From the NCBI GenBank assembly GCA_034509735.1, contig JACGWO010000005.1:36176479-36240478 (forward strand): DNA of 64,000 bases, in the 5' to 3' direction. Made by a program: the position numbers and the translations under genes. How positions within the stretch are numbered: the stretch's first letter is position 1; each line of letters starts with the position of its first letter. The notes below the pieces were generated by a model. The model was not told the origin of the DNA. It ran no database searches and saw only the letters and a program-made list of their open reading frames with translations. This DNA is from Sesamum alatum (taxonomy: Eukaryota; Streptophyta; Magnoliopsida; Lamiales; Pedaliaceae). Shown piece after piece: positions 7,601 through 60,175 of the stretch.

Positions 7601-8109
7601 ATTTTAAATCCAATTGTTAGATAAGGTCACACAGACACCATATATATTACATGCCTTTAGGGTTCAAACAAATTCAGTTAACAAATGTCGAGATATCATA
7701 TTTTGAAAATTTGGATAGTTTTGCTGATAAAATTTTCAATGAGATTTTCGTCAATTTTGAAGTTATTTTGAAATTCATTGATAATACCATTGGAAAATTT
7801 ATAACTGTTTTGGAATATTCCTCCAAAATTAGGGTTTCAAACGACTTTTTTAGCTATTTTGTCGACAGATTTTTTGAATTTCGATTCGCACCATTTTTTT
7901 TTGGTTCTCATGCCGAATTCAATTTCTTATCAACAACCTTATAGACTGATTTTTCATTAATTTTTTTTAATTATTACCCTTTTGATTATTTCCAACTGAA
8001 ACACCAACATATTTTGGAACGAAAAATATACAACTTTTCGACAGTCTTCTTTCGTCGAAAAATCCATAACAAAACCTTAGAAACCAACACCTACAAATAA
8101 AATGTCGGC

Positions 8110-8134
8110 AATCAATTGAAAATTCCAATTGATT
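8110..8134. repeat. Spacer hairpin 1 (9-bp perfect inverted repeat)
   Basis: AATCAATTG and CAATTGATT pair around a 7-nt loop. The element lies about 0.79 kb before the gene start and recurs at the corresponding place in nearly every unit (for example 20963, 32261, 38737). It is decayed in the unit before copy 2. Confidence 0.65.
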
Positions 8135-8147
8135 TTACGACGAATTT

Positions 8148-8180
8148 CCGACGGTGTTACACATCAGGCCTAACCGTCGG
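8148..8180. repeat. Spacer hairpin 2 (8-bp perfect inverted repeat)
   Basis: CCGACGGT and ACCGTCGG pair around a 17-nt loop, immediately after hairpin 1. It is conserved in most units and damaged in a few, for example near 43088. It could be a cruciform or the relic of a small inverted-repeat transposon; no function is shown. Confidence 0.65.
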
Positions 8181-8714
8181 ATAAACAAATTAAGTCATCA
8201 AAAACTTCGTCTGAATTTTCCTATGGATGTTTTCCGTAGGAGAAACCGTTTTAAATATGAGTACTCAATTCCTATGAATACAATATATAACCGAATTCAT
8301 TTTCTTAAAACAAATTGGATTGTATCCTTTAATACATATTATATATATAAAATGTCACTACAAATTTTCTTTCTTGGATAAAATCGATTACACGTTCCTT
8401 ATATGCGTGGCTTATTATAGATATATATGTATGAAACTCATTAAGACTCATTTCCAATAAAAAATCAGATCCATTGTACACTTAGTGAATTGGTCGTCCT
8501 CAATGTAAATAATACATGTAATAAAATTTACAATAAAAATCCAATCTACTATACAACTCATGCATTGATTGAAAATGATGTATAGATTGAATATACAATC
8601 TATTATACAATTGATGCAATTATTAAAAACACTGCACCTTAAATGTAATAAATTTATAAATAAAAATACAATCCAATATACAACTAGGGCATTTATTGAA
8701 AATAATGTATACGA

Positions 8715-8842
8715 CACGTGTACGAAGATGTTGGAGGGCTTCATACATGCTTTTATAACTGAATGAATTTACATTCTATATACTAGTATGGTGACATTAA
8801 TTTGTTCCGAGGGAGGGGGTTCACAATATTTCACTATAAAAA
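8715..8842 (+). promoter_or_regulatory. Promoter of the array gene (G-box and TATA box), representative copy 1
   Basis: A CACGTG G-box sits at 8715-8720 (-184 from the ATG). A G-rich tract lies at about 8807-8819 and a TATA box, TATAAAAA, at 8835-8842 (-64). The TATA position predicts a start of transcription near 8866-8870 and a 5' leader of only about 30 nt. The same spacing is found before other copies. The G-box is changed to CACATG before copies 10, 13 and 14, to CACGAG before copy 19 and to CATGTG before copy 20. The TATA box becomes TTTAAAAA in copies 19 and 20. G-boxes bind bZIP and bHLH factors in plants; the actual regulator is unknown. Confidence 0.7.
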
Positions 8843-8898
8843 CAATCACCTCTCACGAAGATTTTCACCAACCCAAAATTTGACAAAGCATTGCAATC

Positions 8899-9333
8899 AT
8901 GTCGAGAGCATATTTCTTTGTTATTTTGCTGGCTGTGCTTTTCGCAATCCCTGCCTTCGCAAAAGACAAATTTGGCGTCGGGCAAGAGCTGGTCAAGCGC
9001 AAGCCACACCATCCACCTAGACATGCACCAGCACCAGCACCAACACCAAAGCTTATTTCAGCACATTCACAAGTACCGAACGATGATGCTGAATTAGACG
9101 AGGAAATTATTGAGATAGAACTCAAGGACAAGCGACGTCATCCACATAAACATGCACCAGCACCAGCACCAAAGGCCAAAGCACCACGTTCGATAGTATC
9201 GGACGATGTAGAGGAATTTAATCAAAACAAGCGCAAACACAAGCCGTCTCATCCGTCTTCAAGTGCACCAGCACCTTCACTAAAGCACAAGAAGCAACCC
9301 CCTTCAGGATCCAACTTATTTGGATTGTTTTAG
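8899..9333 (+). CDS. Secreted three-module His/Pro-rich protein, array copy 1
   Basis: 144 aa, intronless, no Cys in the mature part. Residues 1-21 form a clear signal peptide (hydrophobic core FFVILLAVLFAIP, cleavage after AFA), so the product enters the secretory pathway. In the 142-aa consensus, three modules follow: 33-73, 74-108 and 109-142. Each begins with basic His/Pro sequence (KRKPHHPPRH; KRRHPHKH; KRKHKPSHPP) and then an APAP(T/A/S)P motif of the kind hydroxylated and arabinogalactosylated in plants. Modules 1 and 2 end in acidic stretches (NDDAELDEE; SDDVEEF); module 3 ends in GSNLFGLF. KR/RR/KK pairs at module borders resemble processing sites. This copy has two extra residues (one more AP), a Lys at 22, and other changes (P50L, P53A, H75D, P118S, P126L). 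Function unknown; options are a cell-wall AGP-like protein, a metal-binding or cationic defence protein, or a peptide precursor. Confidence 0.85.
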   Translation: MSRAYFFVILLAVLFAIPAFAKDKFGVGQELVKRKPHHPPRHAPAPAPTPKLISAHSQVPNDDAELDEEIIEIELKDKRRHPHKHAPAPAPKAKAPRSIVSDDVEEFNQNKRKHKPSHPSSSAPAPSLKHKKQPPSGSNLFGLF

Positions 9334-9380
9334 ATTAATTACCAAAAAATAAAAAATATTGCTGGTGAATAAAAATGTTT
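9334..9380 (+). terminator. Polyadenylation-type 3' end of copy 1 (representative)
   Basis: Two AATAAA signals, at 9348-9353 and 9368-9373, lie 15-40 nt after the stop. The arrangement is repeated after every copy. Confidence 0.55.
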
Positions 9381-11042: not shown

Positions 11043-11471
11043 ATGTGGAGAGCATATTTCTTTGTTATTTTGCTGGCTGTGCTTTTCGCAATCCCTGCCT
11101 TCGCAAATGACAAATTTGGCGTCGGGCAAGAGCTGGTCAAGCACAAGCCACACCATCCACCTAGACATGCACCAGCACCAACACCAAAGCCTATTTCACC
11201 ACATTCACAAGTATCGAATGATGATGCTGAATTAGACGAGGAAATTATTGAGATAGAACTCAAGCACAAGCGACGTCATCCACATAAACATGCACCAGCA
11301 CCAGCACCAAATGCCAAAGCACCACGTTCGATAGTATCGGACGATGTAGAGGAATTTAATCAAAACAAGCGCAAACACAAGCCGTCTCATCCGCCTTCAA
11401 GTGCACCAGCACCTTCACCAAAGCACAAGAAGCAACCCCCTTCAGGATCCAACTTATTTGGATTGTTTTAG
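11043..11471 (+). CDS. Secreted three-module His/Pro-rich protein, array copy 2
   Basis: 142 aa and intact. Relative to the consensus it has S2W beside the start, L9I in the signal core, R34H (which removes the KR pair at the start of module 1), P58S, T69I and K90N. The G-box and TATA box (10979-10986) are intact. The second residue change does not disturb the predicted signal peptide. Confidence 0.85.
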   Translation: MWRAYFFVILLAVLFAIPAFANDKFGVGQELVKHKPHHPPRHAPAPTPKPISPHSQVSNDDAELDEEIIEIELKHKRRHPHKHAPAPAPNAKAPRSIVSDDVEEFNQNKRKHKPSHPPSSAPAPSPKHKKQPPSGSNLFGLF

Positions 11472-13193: not shown

Positions 13194-13622
13194 ATGTCGA
13201 GAGCATATTTCTTTGTTATTTTGCTGGCTGTGCTTTTCGCAATCCCTGCCTTCGCAAATGACAAATTTGGCGTCGGGCAAGAGCTGGTCAAGCGAAAGCC
13301 ACACCATCCACCTAGACATGCACCAGCACCAACACCAAAGCCCATTTCACCACATTCACAAGTACCGAACGATGATGCTGAATTAGACGAGGAAATTATT
13401 GAGATAGAACTCAACCACAAGCGACGTCATCCACATAAACATGCACCAGCACCAGCACCAAAGGCCAAAGCACCACGTTCGATTGTATCGGACGATGTAG
13501 AGGAATTTAATCAAAACAAGCGCAAACACAAGCCGTCTCATCCGCCTTCAAGTGCACCAGCACCTTCACCAAAGCACAAGAAGCAACCCTCTTCAGGATC
13601 CAACTTATTTGGATTGTTTTAG
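13194..13622 (+). CDS. Secreted three-module His/Pro-rich protein, array copy 3
   Basis: 142 aa and intact, close to consensus with L9I, T69I, K74N and P133S. All dibasic pairs at the module borders are kept. G-box present; TATA box at 13130-13137. Confidence 0.85.
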   Translation: MSRAYFFVILLAVLFAIPAFANDKFGVGQELVKRKPHHPPRHAPAPTPKPISPHSQVPNDDAELDEEIIEIELNHKRRHPHKHAPAPAPKAKAPRSIVSDDVEEFNQNKRKHKPSHPPSSAPAPSPKHKKQPSSGSNLFGLF

Positions 13623-15328: not shown

Positions 15329-15756
15329 ATGTCGAGAGCATATTTCTTTGTCCTTTTGCTGGCTGTGCTTTCGCAATCCCTGCCTTCGCAAATGACAAAT
15401 TTGGCGTCGGGCAAGAGCTGGTGAAGCGCAAGCCACACCATCCACCTAGACATGCACCAGCACCAACACCAAAGCCTATTTCAGCACATTCACAAGTACC
15501 GAACGATGATGCTGAATTAGACGAGGAAATTACTGAGATAGAACTCAAGCACAAGCGACGTCATCCCCAAAAACAAGCACCAGCACCAGCACCAAAGGCC
15601 AAAGCACCACTTTTGATAGTATCGGACGATGAAAAGGAATTTAATCAAAACAAGCGCAAACACAAGCCGTCTCATCCGCCTTCAAGTGCACCAGCACCTT
15701 CACCATAGCACAAGAAGCAACCCCCTTCAGGATCCAACTTATTTGGATTGTTTTAG
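15329..15756 (+). pseudogene. Array copy 4, broken
   Basis: A single T is missing in the signal-peptide part (CTGTGCTTTCGC instead of CTGTGCTTTTCGC), so the ATG at 15329 is out of frame with the body. The body also has a stop at 15706-15708 (AAG to TAG in module 3), removing the conserved C-terminus; the ancestral stop would be 15754-15756. Additional changes in module 2 (HPQKQAPAP, LLIVSDDEKEF) indicate longer divergence than in central copies. The promoter G-box is intact, so a transcript could still be made. Confidence 0.85.
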
Positions 15757-17468: not shown

Positions 17469-17895
17469 ATGTCGAGAGCATATTTCTTTGTCCTTTTGCT
17501 GGCTGTGCTTCGCAATCCCTGCCTTCGCAAATGACAAATTTGGCGTTGGGCAAGAGCTGGTGAAGCGCAAGCCACACCATCCACCTAGACATGCACCAGC
17601 ACCAACACCAAAGCCTATTTCACCACATTCACAAGTACCGAACGATGATGCTGAATTAGACGAGGAAATTACTGAGATAGAACTCAAGCACAAGCGACGT
17701 CATCCACATAAACAAGCACCAACACCAGCACCAAAGGCCAAAGCACCACGTTTGATAGTATCGGACGATGTAAAGGAATTTAATCAAAACAAGCGCAAAC
17801 ACAAGCCGTCTCATCCGCCTTCAAGTGCACCAGCACCTTCACCAAAGCACAAGAAGCAACCCCCTTCAGGATCCAACTTATTTGGATTGTTTTAG
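17469..17895 (+). pseudogene. Array copy 5, broken in the signal peptide
   Basis: Two T residues are missing at the same T-run as in copy 4 (CTGTGCTTCGC), shifting the ATG at 17469 out of frame. The rest, from the mature N-terminus to the stop at 17895, is intact, with module 2 reading HPHKQAPTPAP and SDDVKEF. No in-frame ATG remains before the body, so a normal secreted product is unlikely. Copies 4 and 5 share several variants and probably come from one duplication. Confidence 0.8.
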
Positions 17896-19607: not shown

Positions 19608-20036
19608 ATGTCGAGAGCATATTTCTTTGTCCTTTTGCTGGCTGTGCTTTTCGCAATCCCTGCCTTCGCAAATGATAAATTTGGCGTCGGGCAAGAGCTG
19701 GTCAAGCACAAGCCACACCATCCACCTAGACATGCACCAACACCAACACCAAAGCCTATTTCACCACATTCACAAGTACCGAACGATGATGCTGAATTAG
19801 ATGAGGAAATTATTGAGATAGAACTCAAGCACAAGCGACGTCATCCACATAAACATGCACCACCACCAGCACCAAAGGCCAAAGCATCACGTTCGATAGT
19901 ATCGGACGATGTAGAGGAATTTAATCAAAACAAGCGCAAACACAAGCCGTCTCATCCGCCTTCAAGTGCACCAGCACCTTCACCAAAGCACAAGAAGCAA
20001 CCCCCTTCAGGATCCAACTTATTTGGATTGTTTTAG
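19608..20036 (+). CDS. Secreted three-module His/Pro-rich protein, array copy 6
   Basis: 142 aa and intact. Differences: R34H, A45T, T69I, A86P and P94S, so the glycomodules read APTPTP and APPPAP. The TATA box is extended by a TA (CACTATATAAAAAC). G-box intact. Confidence 0.85.
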   Translation: MSRAYFFVLLLAVLFAIPAFANDKFGVGQELVKHKPHHPPRHAPTPTPKPISPHSQVPNDDAELDEEIIEIELKHKRRHPHKHAPPPAPKAKASRSIVSDDVEEFNQNKRKHKPSHPPSSAPAPSPKHKKQPPSGSNLFGLF

Positions 20037-21766: not shown

Positions 21767-22195
21767 ATGTCGAGAGCATATTTCTTTGTCCTTTTGCTGG
21801 TTGTGCTTTTCGCGATCCCTGCCTTCGCAAATGACAAATTTGGCGTCGGGCAAGAGCTGGTCAAGCGCAAGCCACACCATCCACCTAGACATGCACCAGC
21901 ACCAACACCAAAGCCTATTTCACCACATTCACAAGTACCGTACGATGATGCTGAATTAGACGAGGAAATTACTGAGATAGAACTCAAGCACAAGCGACGT
22001 CATCCACATAAACATGCACCAGCACCAGCACCAAAGGCCAAAGCACCACGTTCGATAGTATCGGACGATGTAGAGGAATTTAATCAAAACAAGCGCAAAC
22101 ACAAGCCGTCTCATCCGCCTTCAAGTGCACCAGCACCTTCACCAAAGCACAAGAAGCAACCCCCTTCAGGATCCAACTTATTTGGATTGTTTTAG
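21767..22195 (+). CDS. Secreted three-module His/Pro-rich protein, array copy 7
   Basis: 142 aa, nearly the array consensus, with A12V and N59Y only. It is the last copy before the MULE insertion. G-box and TATA box intact. Confidence 0.87.
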   Translation: MSRAYFFVLLLVVLFAIPAFANDKFGVGQELVKRKPHHPPRHAPAPTPKPISPHSQVPYDDAELDEEITEIELKHKRRHPHKHAPAPAPKAKAPRSIVSDDVEEFNQNKRKHKPSHPPSSAPAPSPKHKKQPPSGSNLFGLF

Positions 22196-23988
22196 ATTAA
22201 TTACCAAAAAATAAAAAATATTGCTGCTGAATAAAAATGTTTCAAGAATTAAGCTACTTATTTGTCATTCAACTGCAACTGCCACAAAACTTTAAAGTGT
22301 GTAAAGTATTCATATCATGAATTATCTTATAATATAGTATTGAACAAAAGTTATGTGAAGTTATGTTCTGCTTTGCTCACATGAGAACTAATGCATTTGT
22401 CCCATATGAATAGAAGAATTACTTCATAGCTACAAAATTACCTACTTTCTTCTAGTCAATGTGTTATTTTCTTAATCATTTTTGTGAAAAGATTCAGGTA
22501 GTCTTTTTTTAGCTTGTTTAATTAATTAAAATACAACTAAGATTTTCAAAATAATTAAAATTGGCGTATTCAAGAGTATATAATTGGTATTATTTTACAA
22601 TATAAGTACACGTCAAATCCAACTGTTAGATAAGGTCACACAGACACCATATATAATACATGCCTTTAGGGTTTAGACAAATCCGGTTAACAAAATATCG
22701 AGATATCATATTTTGAAAATTTGGATAGTTTTTGCTGATAAAATTTTCGACGAGATTTTCATCAATTTTGAAGTTATTTTGAAATCCATTGATAATACCA
22801 TTGGAAAAATTTGAACATTTTGGGAATATTCCTCCAAAATTAGGGTTTCAAACGGTTTTTTTAGCTATTTGTTCGACGGATTTTTTGAATTTCGATGCGC
22901 ACAATTTTTTTTTTGGTTTTCATGCCGAATTCAATTTCTTATCAACAACCATATCGACAAATTTTTAATTTTTTTAATTTTTTTTCAATTATTACCCATT
23001 GATTATTTCCAACTGAAATACCAATAGATTTTGCAACAAAAAAATATACAACTTTGCGATAGCCTTCTTTCATCGAAAAATCCATAACAAAACATTAGAA
23101 ACCAACACCCGCAAATAAAATTTCGGCAATCAATTGAAAATTCCAATTGATTTTATGATGAATTTCCGACGGTGTTATACATCAGGCCTAACCGTCGGAT
23201 AAACAAATTAAGTCATCAAAAACTTCGTCTGAATTTTCCTATAGATGTTTTCCGTTGGAGAAACTGTTTTAAATATGAGTACTTAATTCCTATGAATACA
23301 ATATATAACCGAATTCATTTACTTAAAACAGATTTGACTGTATCCTTTAATACATATTACATATATAAAATGTCACTACAAATTTTCTTTCTTGGATTAA
23401 ATAGATTACACGTTCCTTATATGCGTGGCTTATTTTATATATATATATGTATTAAACTCATTAAGACTAATTTACAATAAAAAATTGGGAAAATTATTTT
23501 TTTATTCCGCTAACTATGCCTAATATTAGTTTTAGTCCTATAACTATGTCCATATTTTATTAACTCCAGTAACTTTCAAAATTGATTAATTTTAGTCCGT
23601 TTGAGGGTTTTGAACTAAATTTTCCGACCAAAATTTTAAATTCAACCGGAACTTGACGACGTGTAAAATTTCTTAGTCCATTTATCAGCCAACTAACCAC
23701 GTGTTGTGCCACGTGGATGCATATGTGGTTTAAAATGGTGACTAGGCAATTTTTTTTTTTTAATAGGATGATTGGTATTGAAGTGGGCCATAGTGGGGTT
23801 GATAAACCCACAAATTACATCAGATTCTTTTCCTTTGTTCTCTTCTCCTACAATCGACAAACCCTTTTCTTTTCGCCCAAATCAACCAGCCCTTGTCCTC
23901 TTTCCCCAAAATTGACGAGCCCTTGTTCCCCCCAAATTGACGACTCAGGCTTCTTCTTGCCGAAAGTGACCGAGAGAAGGTAGCAGCT

Positions 23989-24470
23989 ATGGTGGTTATG
24001 CGTGACCCAGCCCTGATTGACGACCCCCCCTTAATTACGGTAAGTCATTCGTGACCGCGTCTCGTTGATGGCCAAGAACTTTTTCTGTTTGTTGTTGTTA
24101 TATATACTTTGTGGTGCAGTTGTTGTTTGCTTAATTTTTTTTTATTTCGTTCTTGGGATGCAAATTTTGGTATTATATATACTTTGTGGTTGAGGTAATG
24201 GTCCCATTATGAACAAGACTATCTTTTTTAATACTGATTTGGGGTTGTGGTCCCCTTGTGTTATAACATGTCTTTGTTGGTAGTGTTTTTAATACTGATT
24301 TGTTGGTAGTGGTCCTACTTTTCCCCCTTGTCCTCTGCTCTATTTTTATTGTTGTTTTTTCAATATGTTTTTGTATTTTTGTTGTATTAATTCTTCTTCA
24401 TTTTTGTTTGTTTTGTTTTATTTTCCTTCTTTTTTTGCACCGCACAGATAAAAAAAGTGGCCTAATAACA
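23989..24470 (+). other. MULE 5' leader region
   Basis: T-rich DNA between the left terminal repeat and the transposase start. It probably holds a 5' UTR and intron; a CAG just before AAAAAAGTGGCC (about 24446) is a likely acceptor. No protein is supported here. Confidence 0.4.
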
Positions 24471-27400
24471 ATGTGTATTCACTATGGTGGTAAATTAAAT
24501 GAAAGTGAATATGTGGGGGGGTCTACATATAAGTTTGACCACGTTGACTACAAATATGTAGGACTTGGGGGCTTGGTGAATTGAGTAATAAAGTTGGCAT
24601 TAGGGGGGAAAAACAATACTTTATAAAGGAAGATAATGGATTCAAAACCATAAACTGCAATTCATTTCTTCAAGAAATGTTTGAACTGTTGGAGGACAAG
24701 AGAGAGGCACATATTTACATAAATGGGGAGGTACAAGGGAATGAAGAACAAGGGAGAGGGGAGGAGTCATCCTCCGGTGGGGAGGAGTTTGAAGACACTG
24801 ACAGTGAATATGAATACAAAATGGATGAGGATAATGATGAGGGGATTGAGGTTGGTCAAAAACAACAAAGTGAGGACACAAATGTGGAAGGGGTTATGGC
24901 TAAGGATATTGATGTTGAGTCGTCCGGGGATGAGAACATTGTGGGCAGTGAGGATGAATTGCCAAGTGATAAAGAATCCGACGGGGAAGGCAAAAAGGGA
25001 GCCACTTTTCCTGTTTTCAATCCTTCATGTTTGTTTGAACCCACTTTCGCATTGGGCATGATTTTTAGCAATAAGACTGAATTGAGACATGCTATTCAAT
25101 CACATGCCATCAAAAGCAAAAGAAACATAAAGATTTCAAAAAATGACAAGGAAAGATTGCATGCAAAATGTGCTGATAATGACTGCATGTGGAGAATTCA
25201 TGCTTGTGCTTTGAAGGCTGAATGTACATTTCAAATTAGGGATTATGTCCCTAATCACACTTGTAACATCACCTTTCATGTCAAGAATATGAAATCAACA
25301 TGGCTCTCAATGAAATACATGCATAAATTCAAAACTGATCCAAAGAGAGGGATTAAGGGTTTCAGAATAGATGCAATTGAAGAGATACGATGCAACATAA
25401 CAAGAAATCAGGCTGCACGAGCCAAGAGACTTGCATTGCTTATGCTTGAGGGTAGTGCTAGTGAGCAATATGCATTGTTGTGGGACTATGTTGATGAGAT
25501 TAAAAGAAGCAATCCTGGGTCTACTGTGATACTCAGGACTGAGCAGGAAGGGGGACAATACATGTTTGACAGGTTTTATGTTTGTCTTCAAGCATTAAAA
25601 TTAAATTTTCTGAATGGTTGTAGACCTGTCATTTGTGTCGATGGGTGTCATTTGAAGGGGGCATTTGGGGGAGTCTTGTTATCTACTGTTTCTATTGACC
25701 CAAACAACAATTTCTTTCCCATTTGTTATGCTGTGGTGATGAAAGAGAATAAGGACACATGGAATTGGTTTTTGACTTTGCTTAAAATGGATTTGCGTAT
25801 AGAAGAATGTGGTCCAATGAATTTTATGTCGGATAAACAAAAAGGATTGGTGGGTGCATTACAAGAACTTTTTCCTAATGCCGAGCATAGATTTTGTGTT
25901 AGACACTTGCATTCAAACTTCAAGAATTATGGGTTTCGGGGTTTGGCATTCAAGAATATTTTGTGGAAGGCTGCAAGAGCCACAACAGTCAATGAATTTA
26001 CACGTAGAATGCAAGAAATGAAAGAACTAGATGAAGGTGCTTTTGCATGGTTTGATGATAAGAATCCGAAAGAGTGGAGTAGATCACACTTTTCTTGTCA
26101 TCCAAGGTGTGATATTTTACTCAACAATGCTTGTGAAAGTTTTAATAGCAATATTCTTGAAGCAAGAGATAAACCTATTCTGTTAATGGTTGAGTGGATA
26201 ATGGAGTATTTGATGCAAAGGCTCCAAAAAAATAGAGACAGGGCAAAGAAGAGATGGAATAAAGTTTTATGTCCTAAGATCCAAAAATAATTGATAGAAA
26301 TAATGAAAAACTTGGAGATTGCATTCCGATCAAATCAGATGATAAGCATTATCAAATTTCATGCTTTGATGGGAATCAATATAGTGTCGATCTGGAGAAT
26401 GCAACTTGTGGGTGTAGGAAATGGGACTTGAGTGGTATTCCTTGTAAACATGCTATTAGTGCTATTTTCTGTCAAGGAGAGAACATAGAAAACTACACAC
26501 ACCAATGCTACAGGGTGGAGACATACTTGAAGGTGTATGAACATGCAATCCTTCCAATCAATGGAAGAAAAGAATGGAAGAAGTCAGATTTCGTACCACT
26601 AGTTCCACCAAATCCTGTGAAGAAAGTCGGAAGGCCTAGAAAAACAAGAAGGATGGAACCTGATGAGCCTGTCCAGAAGAAGAAAAAGAGAAGACCTCAT
26701 CCAATATTCAAAGAAGGATCCAATAAAATAAAGAGGCAACAAATCACTGTAAAATGTGGCAAGTGTGGTGCCCAGGGACATAATGCTAGGACCTGTAAAG
26801 AGCCTATCACTGATGCTGCAAGCCAGGTTGAAATCAGTTTCTTATGTTTCAGTTTTCTTAAATCTGTCAATGTTATTGTGGTTGTTAATAGTAATTGTTA
26901 TGTCAGGTTATGGGAAGAACTGAAACTGTTGCAGAAGCTCCAAATGAACCTGTTACAGATGAAGCAAGCCAAGTGAATGAAGCTGAAAATATCCCACAAA
27001 AACTTAGGGTATAATTTGTATTCTTGTTCTTCTTTGTGTTGAATGATAGTATGTTAATTGTTGGAAAACCTTCTGTCAGGTTAGAAGAAAAGGAAAAGAG
27101 CATGTGCAAGAAGGAGTTGATGTGGTTATGCATAGAAGAACAAGAAGTGTAAGCGATCTTGGTTTTTTATTTTTATATGCTTTTTGGTTCAATTGTATAT
27201 TAATTAATTTAAGCTTGTGTAGGGATATATCCCACCAACCTCTGCTTTCAAGTTACCTCCAAAAGCTACAACAACAGCCCCAACAATGTTTGAGCAATTC
27301 AAACAATGCCAAAAAGGGGTCAAGATTAGAGAGCCAGCTCCTTATGTAGACGGTGAAAGGCCACCTCAAGAACAAGCAAGTTTAGGATCAACACCATCCA

Positions 27401-27510
27401 TAGTGAAGGGAGGAAAAAGATTCATCACATTGTCCAATCTAAGTCAAGTTGTGAGTCAAGGCAAGCAGAAGAAGGATAAGAACAAGGATAAAGCGAAGAA
27501 AAAAATGTGA
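24471..27510 (+). pseudogene. mudrA-like MULE transposase, nearly complete with two frameshifts
   Basis: Four exons join in frame: 24471-26826, 26907-27008, 27080-27148 and 27223-27510, all with GT/AG introns. Domains in order: N-terminal IHYGGKLNESEYVGG; an acidic linker; the MuDR DNA-binding region (LGMIFSNKTELRHAIQSHAI); the DDE domain with Asp in CVDGCHLKG (codon 25640-25642), Asp in MSDKQKG (25832-25834) and Glu in NACESFNS (26135-26137); the SWIM finger CGCRKWDLSGIPCKH; an AT-hook-like GRPRKTRR; a CCHC knuckle CGKCGAQGHNARTC; and a basic tail. Two single-base shifts break it: one at about 24580 (VN then stop; the next frame resumes ELSNKVG), and one in an A-run at 26283-26290 (CPKIQK then stop; the next frame resumes IDRNNEKL). 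All catalytic residues are present, so loss of function is recent. Confidence 0.9.
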
Positions 27511-28190
27511 AGAGGGTGAGGGTAATTTTTTGGTGCTGTTTTGCTGAAAATACAGTGAAGGAAATTGTATTTGCTGCTGAAACAGTGTATTTTGCTGCCG
27601 AAACTATGCAATTTGGCTATATTTTGCTGAAAAAACATGTGTTTTGCTGCTGAAAATAGTGCATTTTGACTGTATTTTGGTTGGTTGGTTAATGGAGAAC
27701 ATGTATGTATTTTTTCAGCAATGGGAAAAGTGCATTTTGCCTAAAAATTATTCCTTTTTTTTATGTATTCTTGAATATTGTTTTTGGTTGAATGTATACA
27801 TTTTCTTCTTTTGTTGGCTGAAAATAAAGAGCCTCTTTTGTTGCCTTTTTCTTGTTCTTTTGTTGGCTGAAAAAAATCAGGAGTATAAAAAATACAAATC
27901 TTTTTTTTTTTTTCTGGCTGCTTGAAAGTGGTCCTTCCATGGAAGAAGACGTGTTGGAGCAGAGTTGGAAGGAGAGAAATGGTTTGTACAAGCATGAAAA
28001 GAAGAAAATATATTTTGTTGGTTAGGAAAAAGTGATTTGGAGGGAAAAAGACATTTCTTCCCTCCAAAATATGGCCAACTTGTCTTCCACCTCATGTTTT
28101 TAGCCACATAAGATTATAAATAAAAAAAAATCGCGTCCAGGTGTACTGCCATGTCATTTTTCAGGCCAAAATTATAAATTCCAGCCACCG
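27511..28190 (+). other. MULE 3' region
   Basis: Non-coding DNA after the transposase stop with repeated TTTTGCTG(C/A)(C/T)GAAA phrases (27538-27730), then T-rich sequence to the right terminal repeat. Confidence 0.5.
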
Positions 28191-28744
28191 GAGGACTAAA
28201 ATTAATCAATTTTGAAAGTTACTGGAGTTATAAAATATGGGCATAGTTATAGGACTAAAACTAATATTAGGCATAGTTAGCGGACTAAAAAAATAATTTT
28301 CCGTAAAAAATCAGATCCATTGTACAATTAGTGAATTGGTCGTCCTCAATGTAAATAATACATGTAATAAAATTTACAATAAAAATCCAATCTACTATAC
28401 AACTCATGCATTGAGTGAAAATGATGTATAAATTGAATATACAATCTATTATACAATTGGTGCAATTATTGAAAACACTTCACCTTAAATGTAATAAATT
28501 TATAAATAAAAATCCAATCCAATATACAACTAGGGCATTTATTGAAAATAATGTATACGACACGTGTACGAAGATGCTGGAGGGCTTCATACATGCTTTT
28601 ATAACTGAATGAATTTACATTCTATATACTAGTATGGTGACATTAATTTGTTCCGGGGGAGGGGGTTCACAATATTTCACTATAAAAACAATCACCTCTC
28701 ACCAAGATTTGCACCAACCCAAAATTTGACAAAGCATTGGAATC

Positions 28745-29173
28745 ATGTCGAGAGCATATTTCTTTGTCCTTTTGCTGGTTGTGCTTTTCGCGATCCCTGC
28801 CTTCGCAAATGACAAATTTGGCGTCGGGCAAGAGCTGGTCAAGCGCAAGCCACACTATCCACCTAGACATGCACCAGCACCAACACCAAAGCCTATTTCA
28901 CCACATTCACAAGTACCGAACGATGATGTTGAATTAGGCGAGGAAATTACTGAGATAGAACTCAAGCACAAGCGACGTCATCCACATAAACATGCACCAG
29001 CACCAGCACCAAAGGCCAAAGCACCACGTTCGATAGTATCGGACGATGTAGAGGAATTTAATCAAAACAAGCGCAAACACAAGCCGTCTCATCCGCCTTC
29101 AAGTGCACCAGCACCTTCACCAAAGCACAAGAAGCAACCCCCTTCAGGATCCAACTTATTTGGATTGTTTTAG
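28745..29173 (+). CDS. Secreted three-module His/Pro-rich protein, array copy 8
   Basis: 142 aa and intact, with A12V, H38Y, A62V and D65G. Its proximal promoter (G-box, G-tract, TATA) is complete, but the MULE has displaced everything more than about 440 bp upstream. H38Y and A62V are shared only with copy 10, marking the two as products of one duplication. Confidence 0.86.
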   Translation: MSRAYFFVLLLVVLFAIPAFANDKFGVGQELVKRKPHYPPRHAPAPTPKPISPHSQVPNDDVELGEEITEIELKHKRRHPHKHAPAPAPKAKAPRSIVSDDVEEFNQNKRKHKPSHPPSSAPAPSPKHKKQPPSGSNLFGLF

Positions 29174-30902: not shown

Positions 30903-31329
30903 ATGTCGAGAGCATATTTCTTTGTCCTTATGCTGGCTGTGCTTTTCGCAATCCCTGCCTTCGCAAATGACAAATTTGGCGTCGGGCAAGAGCTGGTCAA
31001 GCGCAAGCCACACCATCCACCTAGACATGCACCAGCACCAACACCAAAGCCTATTTCACCATATTCACAAGTACCGAACGATGATGCTGAAAGACGAGGA
31101 AATTACTGAGATAGAACTCAAGCACAAGCGACGTCATCCACATAAACATGCACCAGCACCAGCACCAAAGGCCAAAGCACCACGTTCGATAGTATCGGAC
31201 GATGTAGAGGAATTTAATCAAAACAAGCGCAAACACAAGCCGTCTCATCCGTCTTCAAGTGCACCAGCACCTTCACCAAAGCACAAGAAGCAACCCCCTT
31301 CAGGATCCAACTTATTTGGATTGTTTTAG
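30903..31329 (+). pseudogene. Array copy 9, frameshifted allele (68-aa product)
   Basis: A 2-nt deletion in the module 1 acidic tail (GCTGAAAGACGAG in place of GCTGAATTAGACGAG) shifts the frame, so translation stops at 31107-31109 after NDDAERRGNY. The product would be the signal peptide plus module 1 only, 68 aa. Downstream sequence through 31329 is otherwise intact. The promoter is complete, with G-box and TATA. The same deletion, L10M and H54Y (SPYSQ) recur in copies 11, 12 and 13. Confidence 0.85.
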
Positions 31330-32561: not shown

Positions 32562-32599
<38 letters not shown>

Positions 32600-37383: not shown

Positions 37384-37810
37384 ATGTCGAGAGCATATTT
37401 CTTTGTCCTTATGCTGGCTGTGCTTTTCGCGATCCCTGCCTTCGCAAATGACAAATTTGGCGTCGGGCAAGAGCTGGTCAAGCGCAAGCCACACCATCCA
37501 CCTAGACATGCACCAGCACCAACACCAAAGCCTATTTCACCATATTCACAAGTACCGAACGATGATGCTGAAAGACGAGGAAATTACTGAGATAGAACTC
37601 AAGCACAAGCGACGTCATCCACATAAACATGCACCAGCACCAGCACCAAAGGCCAAAGCACCACGTTCGATAGTATCGGACGATGTAGAGGAATTTAATC
37701 AAAACAAGCGCAAACACAAGCCGTCTCATCCGTCTTCAAGTGCACCAGCACCTTCACCAAAGCACAAGAAGCAACCCCCTTCAGGATCCAACTTATTTGG
37801 ATTGTTTTAG
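37384..37810 (+). pseudogene. Array copy 12, frameshifted allele
   Basis: Same 2-nt deletion; the 68-aa frame ends at 37590. The gene is almost identical to copy 11, and the flanking spacers match too, so this is a very recent monomer duplication. Promoter intact. Confidence 0.85.
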
Positions 37811-39536: not shown

Positions 39537-39963
39537 ATGTCGAGAGCATATTTCTTTGTCCTTATGCTGGCTGTGCTTTTCGCGATCCCTGCCTTCGCAA
39601 ATGACAAATTTGGCGTCGGGCAAGAGCTGGTCAAGCGCAAGCCACACCATCCACCTAGACATGCACCAGCACCAACACCAAAGCCTATTTCACCATATTC
39701 ACAAGTACCGAACGATGATGCTGAAAGACGAGGAAATTACTGAGATAGAACTCAAGCACAAGCGACGTCATCCACATAAACATGCACCAGCACCAGCACC
39801 AAAGGCCAAAGCACCACGTTCGATAGTATCGGACGATGTAGAGGAATTTAATCAAAACAAGCGCAAACACAAGCCGTCTCATCCGTCTTCAAGTGCACCA
39901 GCACCTTCACCAAAGCACAAGAAGCAACCCCCTTCAGGATCCAACTTATTTGGATTGTTTTAG
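39537..39963 (+). pseudogene. Array copy 13, frameshifted allele
   Basis: Same 2-nt deletion; the 68-aa frame ends at 39743. Unlike copies 9, 11 and 12, its upstream region has the copy-10-type variants (GTGTAATTATTG, ACTACGGCATT and CACATG instead of the G-box). The unit is therefore a recombinant between the two types. Confidence 0.85.
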
Positions 39964-41692
39964 ATTAATTACCAAAAAATAAAAAATATTGCTGCTGAAT
40001 AAAAATGTTTCAAGAATTAAGCTACTTATTTGTCATTCAACTGCAACTGCCACAAAACTTTAAAGTGTGTAAAGTATTCATATCATGAATTATCTTATAA
40101 TATAGTATTGAACAAAAGTGATGTGAAGTTATGTTCTGCTTTGCTCACATGAGAACTGACGCATTTATCCCATATGAATAGAAGAATTACTTCATAGCTA
40201 CAAAATTACCTACTTTCTTCTAGTCAATGTGTTATTTTCTTAATCATTTTGTGAAAAGATTCAGGTAGTCTTTTTTAGCTTGTTTAATTAATTAAAATAC
40301 AACTAAGTTTTACAAATAATTAAAATTGGCGTATTCAAGAGTATATAATTGGTATTATTTTACAATATAAGTACACGTCAAATCCAACTGTTAGATAAGG
40401 TCACAGATACACCATATATAATACATGCCTTTAGGGTTTAGACAAATCCGGTTAACAAATATCGAGATATCATATTTTGAAAATTTGGATAGTTTTGCTG
40501 ATAAAATTTTCGACGAGATTTTCATCAATTTTGAAGTTATTTTGAAATCCATTGATAATACCATTGAAAAAAATTTGAACATTCTGGGAATATTCCTCTA
40601 AAATTAGGGTTTCAAACGGTTTTTTTAGCTATTTTGTCGACGGATTTTTTTGAATTTTGATTCGCACAATTTTTTTTTTGGTTTTCATGCCGAATTCAAT
40701 TTCTTATCAACAACCTTATCGACAAATTTTTAATTTTTTTAATTTTTTTTCAATTATTACCCATTTGATTATTTCCAACTGAAATACCAATAGATTTTGC
40801 AACAAAAAAATATACAACTTTTCGACAGCCTTCTTTCGTCGAAAAATCCATAACAAAACATTAGAAACCAACACCCGCAAATAAAATTTCGGCAATCAAT
40901 TGAAAATTTCAATTGATTTTACGACGAATTTCCGACGGTGTTACACATCAGGCCTAACCGTCGGATAAACAAATTAAGTCATCAAAAACTTCGTCTGAAT
41001 TTTCCTACAGATGTTTTCCGTTGGAGAAACCGTTTTAAATATGAGTACTTAATTCCTATGAATACAATATATAACCGAATTCATTTTCTTAAAACAGATT
41101 TGACTGTATCCTTTAATACATATTACATATATAAAATGTCACTACAAATTTTCTTTCTTGGATAAAATAGATTACACGTGCCTTATATGCGTGGCTTATT
41201 TTATATATATATATATATACATGTATTAAACTCATTAAGACTAATTTACAATAAAAAATCAGATCCATTGTACACTTAGTGAATTGGTCGTCCTCAATGT
41301 AAGTAATACATGTAATAAAATTTACAATAAAAATCCAATCTACTATACAACTCATGCACTGAGTGAAAATGATGTATAAATTGAATATACAATCTATTAT
41401 ACAATTGGTGCAATTATTGAAAACACTTCACCTTAAATGTAATAAATTTATAAATAAAAATCCAATCCAATATACAACTAGGGCATTTATTGAAAATAAT
41501 GTATACGACACATGTACGAAGATGCTGGAGGGCTTCATACATGCTTTTATAACTGAATGAATTTACATTCTATATACAAGTATGGTGACATTAATTTGTT
41601 CCGGGGGAGGGGGTTCACAATATTTCACTATAAAAACAATCACCTCTCACCAAGATTTTCACCAACCCAAAATTTGACAAAGCATTGGAATC

Positions 41693-42121
41693 ATGTCGAG
41701 AGCATATTTCTTTGTCCTTTTGCTGGCTGTGCTTTTCGCGATCCCTGCCTTCGCAAATGACAAATATGGCGTCGGGCAAGAGCTGGTCAAGCGCAAGCCA
41801 CACCATCCACCTAGACATGCACCAGCACCTACACCAAAGCCTATTTCACCACATTCACAAGTACCGAACGATGATGCTGAATTAGACGAGGAAATTACTG
41901 AGATAGAAATCAAGCACAAGCGACGTCATCCACATAAACATGCACCAGCACCAGCACCAAAGGCCAAAGCACCACATTCGATAGTATCGGACGATGTAGA
42001 GGAATTTAATCAAAACAAGCGCAAACACAAGCCGTCTCATCCGCCTTCAAGTGCACCAGCACTTTCACCAAAGCACAAGAAGCAACCCCCTTCAGGATCC
42101 AACTTATTTGGATTGTTTTAG
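41693..42121 (+). CDS. Secreted three-module His/Pro-rich protein, array copy 14
   Basis: 142 aa and intact: F25Y, L73I, R95H and P124L, the last altering the third glycomodule to APALSP. The G-box is CACATG; the TATA box is intact. Confidence 0.86.
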   Translation: MSRAYFFVLLLAVLFAIPAFANDKYGVGQELVKRKPHHPPRHAPAPTPKPISPHSQVPNDDAELDEEITEIEIKHKRRHPHKHAPAPAPKAKAPHSIVSDDVEEFNQNKRKHKPSHPPSSAPALSPKHKKQPPSGSNLFGLF

Positions 42122-43844: not shown

Positions 43845-44273
43845 ATGTCGAGAGCATATTTCTTTGTCCTTTTCCTGGTTGTGATTTTCGCAATCCCTGC
43901 CTTCGCAAATGACAAATTTGGCGTCGGGCAAGAGCTGGTCAAGCGCAAGCCACACCATCCACCTAGACATGCACCAACACCAACACCAAAGCCTATTTCA
44001 CCACATTCACAAGTACCGAACAATGATGCTGAATTAGCCGAGGAAATTACTAAGATAGAACTCAAGCACAAGCGTCGTCATCCACATAAACATGCACCAG
44101 CACCAGCACCAAAGGTCAAAGCACCACGTTCGATAGTATCGGACGATGTAGAGGAATTTAATCAAAACAAGCACAAACACAAGCAGTCTCATCCGCCTTC
44201 AAGTGCACCAGCACCTTCACCAAAGCACAAGAAGCAACCCCCTTCAGGATCCAACTTATTTGGATTGTTTTAG
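43845..44273 (+). CDS. Secreted three-module His/Pro-rich protein, array copy 15
   Basis: 142 aa and intact but more diverged: L10F, A12V and L14I in the signal core, A45T, D60N, D65A, E70K, A91V, R110H and P114Q. Three of these changes reduce the acidic tail of module 1, and R110H removes the KR pair before module 3. G-box present. Confidence 0.85.
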   Translation: MSRAYFFVLFLVVIFAIPAFANDKFGVGQELVKRKPHHPPRHAPTPTPKPISPHSQVPNNDAELAEEITKIELKHKRRHPHKHAPAPAPKVKAPRSIVSDDVEEFNQNKHKHKQSHPPSSAPAPSPKHKKQPPSGSNLFGLF

Positions 44274-46016: not shown

Positions 46017-46445
46017 ATGTCGAGAGCATATTTCTTTGTCCTTTTGCTGGCTGTGCTTTTCGCAATCCCTGCCTTCGCAAATGACAAATTTGGCGTCGGG
46101 CAAGAGCTGGTCAAGCGCAAGCCACACCATCCACCTAGACATGCACCAGCACCAACACCAAAGCCTATTTCACCACATTCACAAGTACTGAACGATGATG
46201 CTGAATTAGACGAGGAAATTACTGAGATAGAACTCAAGCACAAGCGACGTCATCCACATAAACATGGACCAGCACCAGCACCAAAGGCCAAAGCACCACG
46301 TTCGATAGTATCGGACGATATAGAGGAATTTAATCAAATTAAGCGCAAACACAAGCCGTCTTATCCGCCTTCAAGTGCACCAACACCTTCACCAAAGCAC
46401 AAGAAGCAACCCCCTTATGGATCCAACTTATTTGGATTGTTTTAG
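46017..46445 (+). CDS. Secreted three-module His/Pro-rich protein, array copy 16
   Basis: 142 aa and intact with P58L, A84G, V102I, N108I, H116Y, A123T and S134Y. The G-box is intact. Confidence 0.85.
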   Translation: MSRAYFFVLLLAVLFAIPAFANDKFGVGQELVKRKPHHPPRHAPAPTPKPISPHSQVLNDDAELDEEITEIELKHKRRHPHKHGPAPAPKAKAPRSIVSDDIEEFNQIKRKHKPSYPPSSAPTPSPKHKKQPPYGSNLFGLF

Positions 46446-47346
46446 ATTAATTACCAAAAAATAGAAAATATTGCTGCTGAATAAAAATGTTTCAAGAATT
46501 AAGCTACTTATTTGTCATTCAACTGCAACTGCCACAAAACTTTAAATTGTGTAAAGTATTCATATCATGAATTATATAATAATATAGTATTGAACAAAAG
46601 TTATGTGAAGTTATGATCTGCTTTGCTCACATGAGAACTAATGCATTTATCGCATATGAATAGGAAAATTACTTCATAGCTACAAAATTACATACTTTCT
46701 TCTGGTCAATGTTTTATTTTCTTAATCATTTTGTGAAAAGATTCAGGTAGTCTTTTTTAGCTTGTTCAATTAATTAAAATATACAACGAAGTTTTTCAAA
46801 TAATTAAAATTGGCGTATTCAAGAGTATATAATTGGTATTATTTTAAAATATAAGTACACGTCAAATCCAACTGTTAGATAAGGTCACATAGACACCATA
46901 TATATTACATGCCTTTAGGGTTTAGACAAATACGGTTAACAAAAATCGAGATATCATATTTTGAAAATTTGGATAGTTTTGCTTATAAAATTTTCGACGA
47001 GATTTTCATCAATTTTGAAGTTATTTTGAAATCCATTGATAATACCATTGGAAAATTTTGAACATTTTTGGAATATTCCTCCAAAATTAGGGTTTCAAAC
47101 GGCTTTTTTTAGCTATTTTGTCGACGAATTTTTTGAATTTCGATTCGCACAATTTTTTTTGGTTCTCGTGCCGAATTCAATTTCTTATCAACAACCTTCT
47201 CGATAAATTTTTAATTTTTTTAATTTTTTTTTCAATCATTACCCTTTTCATTATTTCCAACTGAAATACCAACAAATTTTGCAACAAAAAAATATACAAC
47301 ATTTCGACAGCCTTCTTTCATTGAAAAATCCATTGATAATACCATT
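46446..47346 (+). repeat. Truncated spacer fused to a gene fragment
   Basis: A normal unit spacer runs to the phrase TTGAAAAATCC at about 47331. It is followed by ATTGATAATACCATTG, a copy of sequence found about 300 bp earlier (about 47035), and then directly by the middle of the gene. Some 0.85 kb of distal spacer and promoter plus the first 62 codons of the next copy are missing. Confidence 0.75.
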
Positions 47347-47589
47347 GAATTAGACGAGGAAATTACTGAGATAGAACTCAAGCACAAGCGACGTCATCCA
47401 CATAAACATGGACCAGCACCAGCACCAAAGGCCAAAGCACCACGTTCGATAGTATCGGACGATGTAGAGGAATTTAATCAAAACAAGCACAAACACAAGC
47501 AGTCTCATCCGCCTTCAAGTGCACCAGCACCTTCACCAAAGCACAAGAAGCAACCCCCTTCAGGATCCAACTTATTTGGATTGTTTTAG
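47347..47589 (+). pseudogene. Array copy 17, 3' fragment
   Basis: It begins at codon 63 (GAA of AELDEE) and runs in frame to the normal stop, 80 codons matching modules 2 and 3. It has no promoter, start codon or signal peptide. The module 3 sequence (NKHKHKQSHPP) is shared with copy 15, and HGPAP in module 2 is shared with copy 16, so the fragment is mosaic. Confidence 0.85.
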
Positions 47590-49313: not shown

Positions 49314-49742
49314 ATGTCGAGAACATATTTTTTAGTCCTTTTGCCGGTTGTGCTTTTTGCAATCCCTGCCTTCGCAATTGACAAATCTGGCGTCGGGCAA
49401 GAGCTGGTCAAGCACAAGCCACACCATCCACCTAGACATGCACCAGCACCAACACCAAACACTATTTCACCACATTCACAAGTACCGAACGATGATGCTG
49501 AATTAGACGAGGAAATTACTGAGATAGAACTCAAGCACAAGCGACATCATCCACATAAACATGCACCAGCACCAGCACCAAAGGCCAAAGCACCACGTTC
49601 GATAGTATCGGACGATGTAGAGGAATTTAATCAAAACAAGCGCAAACACAAGCCGTCTCATCCGCCTTCAAGTGCACCAGCACCTTCACCAAAGCACAAG
49701 AAGCAACCCCCTTCAGGATCCAACTTATTTGGATTGTTTTAG
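49314..49742 (+). CDS. Secreted three-module His/Pro-rich protein, array copy 18
   Basis: 142 aa and open, with A4T, F7L, L11P and A12V in the signal region, N22I and F25S just after cleavage, R34H, K49N, P50T and R78H. A proline inside the hydrophobic core (LLPVVLF) may weaken the signal peptide. G-box and TATA intact. Confidence 0.82.
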   Translation: MSRTYFLVLLPVVLFAIPAFAIDKSGVGQELVKHKPHHPPRHAPAPTPNTISPHSQVPNDDAELDEEITEIELKHKRHHPHKHAPAPAPKAKAPRSIVSDDVEEFNQNKRKHKPSHPPSSAPAPSPKHKKQPPSGSNLFGLF

Positions 49743-51352: not shown

Positions 51353-51780
51353 ATGTCGAGAGAATATTTCTTAGTCTTTTTGCTGGTTGTGATTTCCCAA
51401 TCCCTGCCTTTGCAAATGACAAATTTGGCGACGGGCAAGAGCTGGTCAAGCGCAAGCCACACCATCCACCTAGACATGCACCAGCAACAACACCAAAGCC
51501 TATTTCACCACATTCACAAGTCTCGGACGATGATGCTGAATTAGACGAGGAAATTACTGAGATAGAACTCAAGCACAAGCGACGTCATCCACATAAACAT
51601 GCACCAGCACCAGCACCAAAGGCCAAAGCACCATGTTCGATTGTATGGGACGATGTAGAGGAATTTAATCAAATCAAGCGCAAACACAAGCCGTCTCATC
51701 CGCCTTCAAGTGCACCAGCACCTTCACCAAAGCACAAGAAGCAACCCCCTTCACGATCCAACTTATTTGGATTATTTTAG
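51353..51780 (+). pseudogene. Array copy 19, broken in the signal peptide
   Basis: One T is missing in the signal-peptide T-run (GTGATTTCCCAATCC), so the ATG at 51353 is out of frame with an otherwise complete body ending at 51780. Other changes: S99W, P94 region reading APCSIV, G135R and N108I. Together with the altered G-box and TATA box, this copy is probably inactive. Confidence 0.82.
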
Positions 51781-53309: not shown

Positions 53310-53317
53310 TTTAAAAA
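53310..53317 (+). promoter_or_regulatory. Altered TATA element of copy 20
   Basis: TTTAAAAA replaces TATAAAAA at -64, as in copy 19. The G-box upstream is also changed (CATGTG). Confidence 0.5.
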
Positions 53318-53373
53318 CAAACACCTCTCTCCAAGATTTTCACCAACCCAAAATTTGACCAAACATCGCAATC

Positions 53374-53802
53374 ATGTCAAGAGCATATTTCTTAGTCCTT
53401 TACTGGTTGTGCTTTTCGCAATCCCTGCCTTCGCAAATGACAAAATTTGGCGACAGGCAAGAGCTTCTCAAGCGCAAGCCACACCATCCACCTAGACATG
53501 CACCAGCACCAACACCAAAGCCTATTTCACCACATTCACGAGTATCGGACGATGATGCTGAATTAGACGAGGAAATTACTGAGATAGAACTCAAGCACAA
53601 GCGACGTCATCCACATAAACATGCACCAACACCAGCACCAAAGCCCAAAATACAACGTTTGATAGTATCGGACGATGTAGAGGAATTTAATCAAACCAAG
53701 CGCAAACACAAGCCGTCTCATCCGCCTTCAAGTGCACCAACACCTTCACCAAAGCACAAGAGGCAACCCATTTCAGGATCCAACTTATTTGGATTGTTTT
53801 AG
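53374..53802 (+). CDS. Secreted three-module His/Pro-rich protein, array copy 20, with rewritten N-terminus
   Basis: 142 codons and open from ATG to the normal stop, but a 1-nt loss in the signal core (CTTTACTGG for CTTTTGCTGG) is compensated by one extra A about 45 nt later (ACAAAATTTGG). Residues 10-23 are therefore read in a different frame: MSRAYFLVLYWLCFSQSLPS replaces the normal signal peptide. A hydrophobic stretch remains (AYFLVLYWLCF), so export is possible but not certain. The mature part also differs most among open copies: V27D, G28R, V32L, P58S, N59D, A91P, A93I, P94Q, S96L, N108T, K130R and P133I. The promoter elements are altered too. Confidence 0.65.
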   Translation: MSRAYFLVLYWLCFSQSLPSQMTKFGDRQELLKRKPHHPPRHAPAPTPKPISPHSRVSDDDAELDEEITEIELKHKRRHPHKHAPTPAPKPKIQRLIVSDDVEEFNQTKRKHKPSHPPSSAPTPSPKHKRQPISGSNLFGLF

Positions 53803-58706: not shown

Positions 58707-58718
58707 GAGAAATACCAA
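57673..58718 (+). pseudogene. LINE A ORF2, endonuclease domain only
   Basis: It starts MNIVIWNARRIGNKLRILRK. Endonuclease/exonuclease/phosphatase motifs are visible: WNAR near the start, GDFNSLVSVSE (about residue 129), and GSDHCPLLAL. Two in-frame stops, at 57856-57858 (after VRNCNNKI) and 58186-58188 (before TWTD), interrupt an otherwise continuous frame. The position usually held by the catalytic Glu reads GVIDPCIR. The frame runs on into unit sequence after about 58706, so the reverse transcriptase is absent. Confidence 0.82.
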
Positions 58719-58719
58719 C

Positions 58720-59356
58720 AGAAATACAATATATAACCAAATTCATTTTCTTAAAACAAATTCGATTGTATCCTTTAATAATTATTATATATATAAAAAA
58801 TGTCACTACAAATTTTCTTTCTTAGATAAAATAGATTACACGTTCCTTATATGCGTGGTTTATTTCTTTATATATATATATATGTATTAAACTCATTAAG
58901 ATTAATTTACAATAAAAAAATCAAATCCACTTAACCCTTTGTTAATTTGTCGTTCTCAATGTAAATAATACATGTAATAAAAATTTACAATAAAATCCCA
59001 ATCTACAATACAACTCATGCATTGATTGAAAATGATGTATAGATTGAATATACAATCTATTATACAATTGGTGCAATTATTAAAAACACTGCACCTTAAA
59101 TGTAATAAATCTATAAATAAAAATCCAATCGAATATACAACTAGGGCATTGATTAAGAATAATGTATACGACACGTGTACGAAGATGTAGGAGGGCTTCA
59201 TAAATGATTTTATAATTGAATGAATTTACATTCTATATACTAGTATATTGACATTAAATTGTTCCGGGGAGAGGGGGGTCACAAAATTTGACTATAAAAA
59301 CAAACACCTCTCTCCAAGATTTTCACCAACCCAAAATTTGACCAAACATCGCAATC
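58720..59356 (+). repeat. Partial unit spacer and promoter of copy 21
   Basis: Starts abruptly at the AATACAATATATAACC phrase in mid-spacer and continues normally through the TA run, G-box and TATA box (CTATAAAAAC) to the gene. Confidence 0.8.
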
Positions 59357-59785
59357 ATGTTGAGAGCATATTTCTTAATCCTTTTGCTGGTTGTGTTTTT
59401 CGCAATCCCTGCCTTCGCAAATGACAAATTTGGCGACGGGCAAGAGCTGCTCAAGCGCAAGCCACACCATCCACCTAGACATGCACCGGCACCAACACCA
59501 TAGCCTATTTCACCACATTCACAAGTATCGGACGATTATGTGGAATTAGACGAGAAAATTAGTGAGATAGAACTCAAGCACAAGTGACGTCATCCACATA
59601 AACATGCCCCAGCACAAGCACTAAAGGCCAAAGCACCACGTTTGATAATATCGGACGATGTAGAGGAATTTAATCAAATCAAGCGCAAACACAAGCCGTC
59701 TCATCTGCCTTCAAGTGCACCAGCACCTTCACCAAAGCACAAGAAGCAACCACCTTCAGGATCCAACTTATTTGGATTGTTTTAG
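59357..59785 (+). pseudogene. Array copy 21, with premature stops
   Basis: Full length at 143 codons without indels, but codon 49 (AAG to TAG in module 1) and a second stop in module 2 (AAGTGACG) truncate it. The predicted product would be a signal peptide (MLRAYFLILLLVVFFAIPAFA) plus 27 residues. The promoter G-box and TATA box are intact. Confidence 0.85.
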
Positions 59786-60175
59786 ATTAATTACAAAAAA
59801 ATAAAAAATATTGCTGCTAAATAAAAATGTTTCAAGAATTCAGCTACTTATTTGTCATTTAATTGCAACTGCCACAAAACTTTAATGTGTGTAAAGTATT
59901 CATATCATGAATTGTCTTATAATATAGTATTGAACAAAAGTTATGTGAATTTATGTTCTGCTTTGCTCACATGAGAACTAATCCATATATCCCATATGAA
60001 TAGAACAATTACTTCATAGCTACAAAATTACCTACTTTCTTCTAGTCGATGTTTTATTTTCTTATTTATTTTGTGAAAAGATTGAGGTAATCCTTTTTAA
60101 GTTGTTCAATTAATTACAATACTACTAAAATTTTCAAATGATTAAAATTATTTTACAAAATAAGTGGACGTCAAA

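Follow-up and report, generated by a model that had tools for sequence, protein, structure and literature searches.

Hydroxyproline-rich systemin (HypSys) precursors are induced by wounding, and their peptides alkalinise the medium or switch on defence genes. Known as preproHypSys, these precursors are small, secreted proteins, each with two or three peptides that are rich in Pro and 15-20 residues long (PMC11371470, PMC4621407). The tomato precursor has 146 aa, its three peptides being given as 18, 15 and 15 aa (PMC11371470) or as 20, 18 and 15 aa (PMC4621407), and that of tobacco has 165 aa (PMC11371470, PMC4621407). HypSys precursors are described from Solanaceae and Convolvulaceae (PMC11371470), and a 30-bp stretch around the cleavage site is presented as conserved in the known ones (PMC4621407). 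Among arabinogalactan proteins (AGPs), group 3 of the non-classical candidates is delimited by composition, with a glycomodule index of at least 0.20, five or more glycomodules, a partial PAST no lower than 60% and a total PAST below 42% (PMC5266747).

The window, i.e. the whole 64,000-nucleotide stretch of Sesamum alatum DNA analysed here, harbors a tandemly repeated gene whose product, like preproHypSys, is a small predicted precursor (142 aa) with three modules (18, 19 and 25 residues as drawn by us); its modules differ from the HypSys peptides in being His/Lys-rich with APAP cores. Similarity to tomato preproHypSys, the one precursor compared, was not significant (local score 46, reached by 239 of 1000 shuffles), and preproHypSys is taken here as the nearest working model for the array product, with no claim of membership.

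With the 429-bp coding sequence (CDS) as query, blastn against the window gave 20 full-length copies plus a 3' remnant of 244 bp, each of them on the plus strand (Table 1). The array reported by the first-pass annotation is thus real, its count of 21 copies including the remnant. Unit similarity, traced with a 2152-bp unit (blastn), runs head-to-tail from about 7606 to 60149 and confirmed the annotated unit size of about 2.15 kb: 17 of the 21 listed units measured 2134-2174 bp (U08 without its inserted MULE transposon), the off-size ones being U17 (1143 bp), U19 (2027 bp), U20 (2042 bp) and U21, a decayed composite. Eleven of the 20 full-length copies were intact, as annotated, with no Cys in any of their products, and eight were broken, either frameshifted (c04, c05, c09, c11, c12, c13, c19) or carrying two in-frame stops (c21); one 2-bp deletion was common to c09, c11, c12 and c13. 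The twelfth copy that had been called open is c20, open only because a 1-bp deletion is offset by a 1-bp insertion, which rewrites the signal region and adds one Cys. The gene is small and open without introns, also as annotated. A TATAAAA motif was located 64 bp upstream of the ATG in 18 full-length copies (TTTAAAA in the other two) and an AATAAA downstream of the stop in 21 of 21 units, in agreement with the promoter attributed to each unit. No Rfam family reached its gathering score in the window.

Two further features were observed upstream of c14. A 72-bp direct repeat with 127-bp spacing and about 80% identity (41307-41378 and 41434-41505, i.e. -386 to -315 and -259 to -188), for which most other units gave corresponding blastn matches, is a possible regulatory duplication. 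The distal upstream part of the unit (40393-41192, -1300 to -501) is CpG-rich for its GC content (observed/expected 1.5-1.9), varies on average more than the gene, and may derive from a transposon.

Table 1. Coordinates of the array, its gene copies, the parts of the reference copy and the inserted transposon (positions in the window)
Feature	Position	Strand	Description	Basis
Tandem array, U01-U21	7606..60149	+	units of about 2.15 kb	blastn of one unit against the window
c01	8899..9333	+	intact, 144 codons, 6-bp insertion (two extra codons)	
c02	11043..11471	+	intact	
c03	13194..13622	+	intact	
c04	15329..15756	+	broken: 1-bp deletion in signal region and stop in reference frame	
c05	17469..17895	+	broken: 2-bp deletion in signal region	
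c06	19608..20036	+	intact	
c07	21767..22195	+	intact	
MULE	23488..28302	+	in upstream part of U08	111-bp terminal inverted repeats (97% identity)
c08	28745..29173	+	intact, downstream of MULE	
c09	30903..31329	+	broken: shared 2-bp deletion	
c10	33066..33494	+	intact	
c11	35223..35649	+	broken: shared 2-bp deletion	
c12	37384..37810	+	broken: shared 2-bp deletion	
c13	39537..39963	+	broken: shared 2-bp deletion	
TATA box of c14	41629..41635	+		
c14	41693..42121	+	intact, reference copy	
c14 module 1	41789..41842	+	codons 33-50, basic, His/Pro, APAPTP	author-drawn boundaries
c14 module 2	41912..41968	+	codons 74-92, basic, His/Pro, APAPAP	author-drawn boundaries
c14 module 3	42017..42091	+	codons 109-133, basic, His/Pro; APALSP in c14, APAPSP in array consensus	author-drawn boundaries
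AATAAA past c14 stop codon	42156..42161	+		
c15	43845..44273	+	intact	
c16	46017..46445	+	intact	
c17	47346..47589	+	remnant: 3' 244 bp left; promoter and initial 185 bp of CDS deleted	
c18	49314..49742	+	intact	
c19	51353..51780	+	broken: 1-bp deletion in signal region	
c20	53374..53802	+	open: compensating deletion and insertion, signal region rewritten	
c21	59357..59785	+	broken: two in-frame stops, decayed right edge	

The array consensus product (142 residues, no Cys) comprised, in order, a hydrophobic N-terminus ending in AFA-ND, a basic module 1, an acidic spacer, module 2, a second acidic spacer and module 3, in line with the signal-like N-terminus and the His/Lys/Pro-rich body with APAP-type cores described from the first reading. 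Residues 3-16 of this N-terminus were modelled as a helix (low-confidence model), and the product is predicted to be secreted. As we drew them, the modules span residues 33-50, 74-92 and 109-133, with net charges of +5, +7 and +7 and 3-4 His each, and the spacers carry -8 and -3; this charge blockiness was matched by none of 2000 shuffles of the consensus. Every module began with, or had close to its start, paired basic residues; the array consensus also had an APAP(T/A/S)P core in each, with exceptions in c14 (APALSP in module 3) and in module 2 of the Sesamum indicum relative introduced below (APAPAQ). Parts of modules 1 and 2 were 79% alike at the DNA level over 87 bp, so internal duplication is the likely way in which the gene grew.

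Three relatives (P0001, P0002 and P0003) came out of a word-based search of about 5.8 billion proteins with an E limit of 1. A profile search, in which the 7991 candidates sharing most words were scored, recovered these three and no others with the limit raised to 10. P0001, the S. indicum hypothetical protein Sindi_2284400, has 142 aa and is 75% identical to the consensus with no indels; P0002 is a Logan protein of 139 aa, the two lying at 75-78% identity. Both are unnamed and uncharacterised, and share with the array product the three modules and two acidic spacers, the net charges in P0001 being +5, +5 and +6 for the modules and -8 and -3 for the spacers (blockiness matched by 3 of 2000 shuffles). 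P0003 (S. indicum Sindi_2269100), from a contig equal in length to that of P0001, looks like a copy of this gene that has been rearranged or frameshifted, and it suggests that copy decay occurs in S. indicum too. No family reached the cut-off in a Pfam scan of the product; its sub-threshold match, a malarial membrane family at E = 0.072, and the single match of a PDB sequence search (E = 0.86) were taken as chance. The view of the product as an unrecognised family therefore stands as far as named Pfam families go and is qualified by the existence of relatives, including an unnamed S. indicum protein 75% identical to it, and by the composition criteria of PMC5266747, which make the product a non-classical AGP candidate. 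No publication on this gene was seen among the papers listed, as judged by titles and the starts of abstracts and partly from the top of longer lists. From these matches and those of the MULE given below, the window is likely from Sesamum (Pedaliaceae, Lamiales) or a close relative, and the array gene likely of that lineage; the lack of matches from other Sesamum proteomes may reflect a small gene left unannotated there.

The differences between the array consensus and P0001 were concentrated outside the modules (5 of 62 residues within the modules, 29 of 80 elsewhere). In this comparison of amino acids with one S. indicum protein, for which the boundaries were drawn after the P0001 alignment had been seen, the modules took 5 of 34 differences against a neutral module share of nonsynonymous changes of 0.476, derived from the mutation spectrum of the unit flanks (p = 9e-5). 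The contrast was smaller but held when set against the within-array changes (Fisher p = 0.027 for all 20 copies, 0.008 for the 11 intact ones), and past constraint on the gene is likely.

The predicted secretion, the conserved basic modules with glycomodule cores, the paired basic residues and the acidic spacers are best fitted by a precursor of three glycopeptides. We therefore tentatively read the locus, with a confidence that approaches an even chance without attaining it, as an array whose gene encodes a predicted secreted protein that would give rise to three basic Pro/His-rich peptides, with no detectable selection on the protein among the intact copies. The product would enter the secretory pathway, where the prolines of its Ala/Ser/Thr-Pro motifs would be hydroxylated and given arabinogalactan-type glycosylation; a protease would cleave near the paired basic residues, the acidic spacers neutralising the basic peptides until their release, and, once free, the peptides would function in the wall space, most probably as signals or pectin-binding factors. 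Against this reading, the conservation of the modules is also expected if the uncut protein is a wall component.

Within the array, no protein-level selection was detectable among the intact copies (55 pairs; dS = 0.0343, dN = 0.0334, ratio 0.97), so that the dN/dS check proposed earlier across the open copies returned a value near 1, and the other nine full-length copies (eight broken and c20, 36 pairs) had a ratio of 1.15. Counting distinct changes against the majority sequence, one base at a time, the intact copies held 49 nonsynonymous and 15 synonymous changes and 1 stop (nonsynonymous share 0.766 compared to 0.754 expected; p = 1.0), and all 20 copies held 88 nonsynonymous and 28 synonymous changes and 4 stops. 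The 120 distinct changes of the CDS were about a quarter fewer than the 161 predicted from the flank rate, and as this shortfall was alike for both kinds (nonsynonymous 88 vs 116.5, synonymous 28 vs 38.0), protein-level selection is not its explanation. The modules held slightly fewer nonsynonymous changes than expected across all 20 copies (32 of 88; p = 0.042) but not across the intact copies alone (21 of 49; p = 0.57), and indels per substitution in 17 core units were lower in the CDS (4:78) than in the flanks (68:400; p = 0.013), a contrast that the AT-rich flanks may inflate. The module and indel deficits lean against pure neutrality within the array, and some copies may be under weak constraint. 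Methylation-type decay of a silenced array was considered and set aside, context C-to-T changes being partly higher upstream than in the CDS with no clean separation.

Units other than U17 and U19-U21 were 94.5-99.6% alike, while U19-U21 (U21 being composite) were 90.5-92.8% like the remaining units, a pattern that would be expected from exchange among the inner units. Both U12 and U13 were mosaics. The informative sites of U12 agreed with U10 in 20 of 22 cases between -1287 and -696, but with U09/U11 in all 27 cases from -466 on; U13 contained an additional U10-like stretch (-291 to -158). The closest pairs, and so likely the youngest, were U09/U11 and U12/U13 (99.58% each). As all of these carry the shared 2-bp deletion, the latest growth of the array likely multiplied broken genes and would not have been favoured by dosage selection; unequal exchange and conversion-like events between units would have multiplied intact and broken copies alike. 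A sequence just left of the array (7325-7588) recurred at its right end (55722-55951 and 60765-61023; 85-88% identical), in one instance immediately ahead of a unit fragment, and the present unit may thus go back to a repeat that was older and longer.

The MULE in U08 contained two transposase ORFs (24581-26290 and 26428-26976), and TAAAAAAT, present near both of its ends, may be part of a target duplication. Among the best 120 of 498 matches listed, its top match was in Sesamum angolense (92% over 53% of the query), others being in S. indicum (78% over 65%), S. radiatum (91% over 50%) and S. angustifolium (92% over 46%), and the best outside Sesamum in Buddleja (60% over 82%). LINE-like sequence was observed between pieces of the decayed right-edge units (55952-58722) and again beyond the array (61962-63161), the two places showing 68% DNA similarity over 271 bp; these regions had zinc-knuckle and DUF4283 matches below cut-off, and an ORF at 58219 was endonuclease-like as judged by eye. 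A long imperfect inverted repeat (60463-60732; 70% identity) is possibly a small hairpin transposon, and minus-strand transposon remains were present left of the array (539-919 and 3460-4056; a DUF4218 fragment and a MuDR DNA-binding domain).

It is quite possible, if on balance not what we would expect, that the array is a gene-derived satellite without present function, any needed copy working elsewhere in the genome. The dN/dS near 1 in intact and broken copies, the eight broken and one rewritten copy among 20, the broken copies in the closest unit pairs and the transposons within and beside the array are all consistent with such a satellite, whereas the 11 copies that are still intact and the CDS indel deficit argue against it, as does the retention of TATA box and poly(A) signal, although this is expected anyway at such low divergence. 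This explanation concerns the array only; it is compatible with a three-peptide precursor as the product, and the probabilities given to the two overlap.

The main rival to the precursor reading itself is a small, basic, hydroxyproline-rich wall protein of the non-classical AGP type that stays uncut and whose charged blocks would cross-link pectin and other wall polymers, since the product qualifies as a non-classical AGP candidate; we consider this doubtful but well conceivable. With the criteria re-implemented up to the later domain-based removal of extensins and PRPs, the array consensus has values within the group 3 limits of PMC5266747 (index 0.326, partial PAST 76.7%, 14 glycomodules, total PAST 35.9%), and P0001 is similar (0.317, 75.6%, 13 and 35.2%). 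The mature protein is moreover basic (pI about 9.8) and rich in His and Lys, and the predicted structure, of low confidence (mean pLDDT 62.2, pTM 0.15; 8 aligned sequences), shows little secondary structure apart from helices suggested for residues 3-16, 62-77 and 100-110. The product shares with non-classical and Lys-rich AGPs clustered AP/SP/TP glycomodules, basic stretches and a signal-like N-terminus, but differs from them in its total PAST well below 50%, in glycomodules confined to three islands, in its acidic spacers, and in having no GPI-type tail by eye and no recognised domain. A classical AGP (total PAST > 50%) was rejected, the mature protein reaching 36.4%. AGP31 has a Cys-containing C-terminal domain; the array product resembles AGP31-type His-rich chimeric AGPs in being His-rich, Pro-rich and basic, but it has no Cys and no domain. 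Extensins are built of Ser-Pro(3-5) repeats and were rejected as well, the consensus being devoid of SPP or SPPP. Against an uncut wall polymer, neither blocks alternating with acidic spacers nor paired basic residues would be needed, and Pfam revealed no wall-protein domain.

In some plant and insect multi-peptide precursors, acidic spacers keep the peptides inert. The modules could likewise be cationic antimicrobial or metal-binding peptides held inert by the spacers, in keeping with their net charge of +5 to +7, their 3-4 His and the acidic spacers between them; this is rather improbable, as no Pfam family, antimicrobial or other, reached the cut-off and the APAPxP-type cores point rather to glycosylation. 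Finally, the proposal of the first-pass annotation that copy number could set dosage, i.e. that the array is kept since many copies raise the dose of product, agrees with the promoter-like region of nearly every unit and with the high similarity of the units other than U17 and U19-U21, but it is very improbable and was rejected as the main reading, purifying selection being undetectable among intact copies (dN/dS near 1) and the closest, multiplied units being broken ones, so that copy number is likely not kept for dosage.

Returning to the three-glycopeptide precursor, a bolder form of it is unlikely but worth stating: the gene could be an independently arisen Lamiales counterpart of HypSys, a sesame-lineage prohormone for three basic His-rich glycopeptides, encoded in an array of about 20 units in which unequal exchange reshuffles peptide variants. 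If the precursor reading is true, the locus would add to an oil-crop lineage a peptide family that has a narrow distribution and no named relatives, and the three conserved modules offer exact peptides for synthesis and testing. The array is also a clear case of a gene that was apparently constrained between species, yet has been multiplied and is drifting, with broken units beside intact ones, and it warns against equating copy number with dosage.
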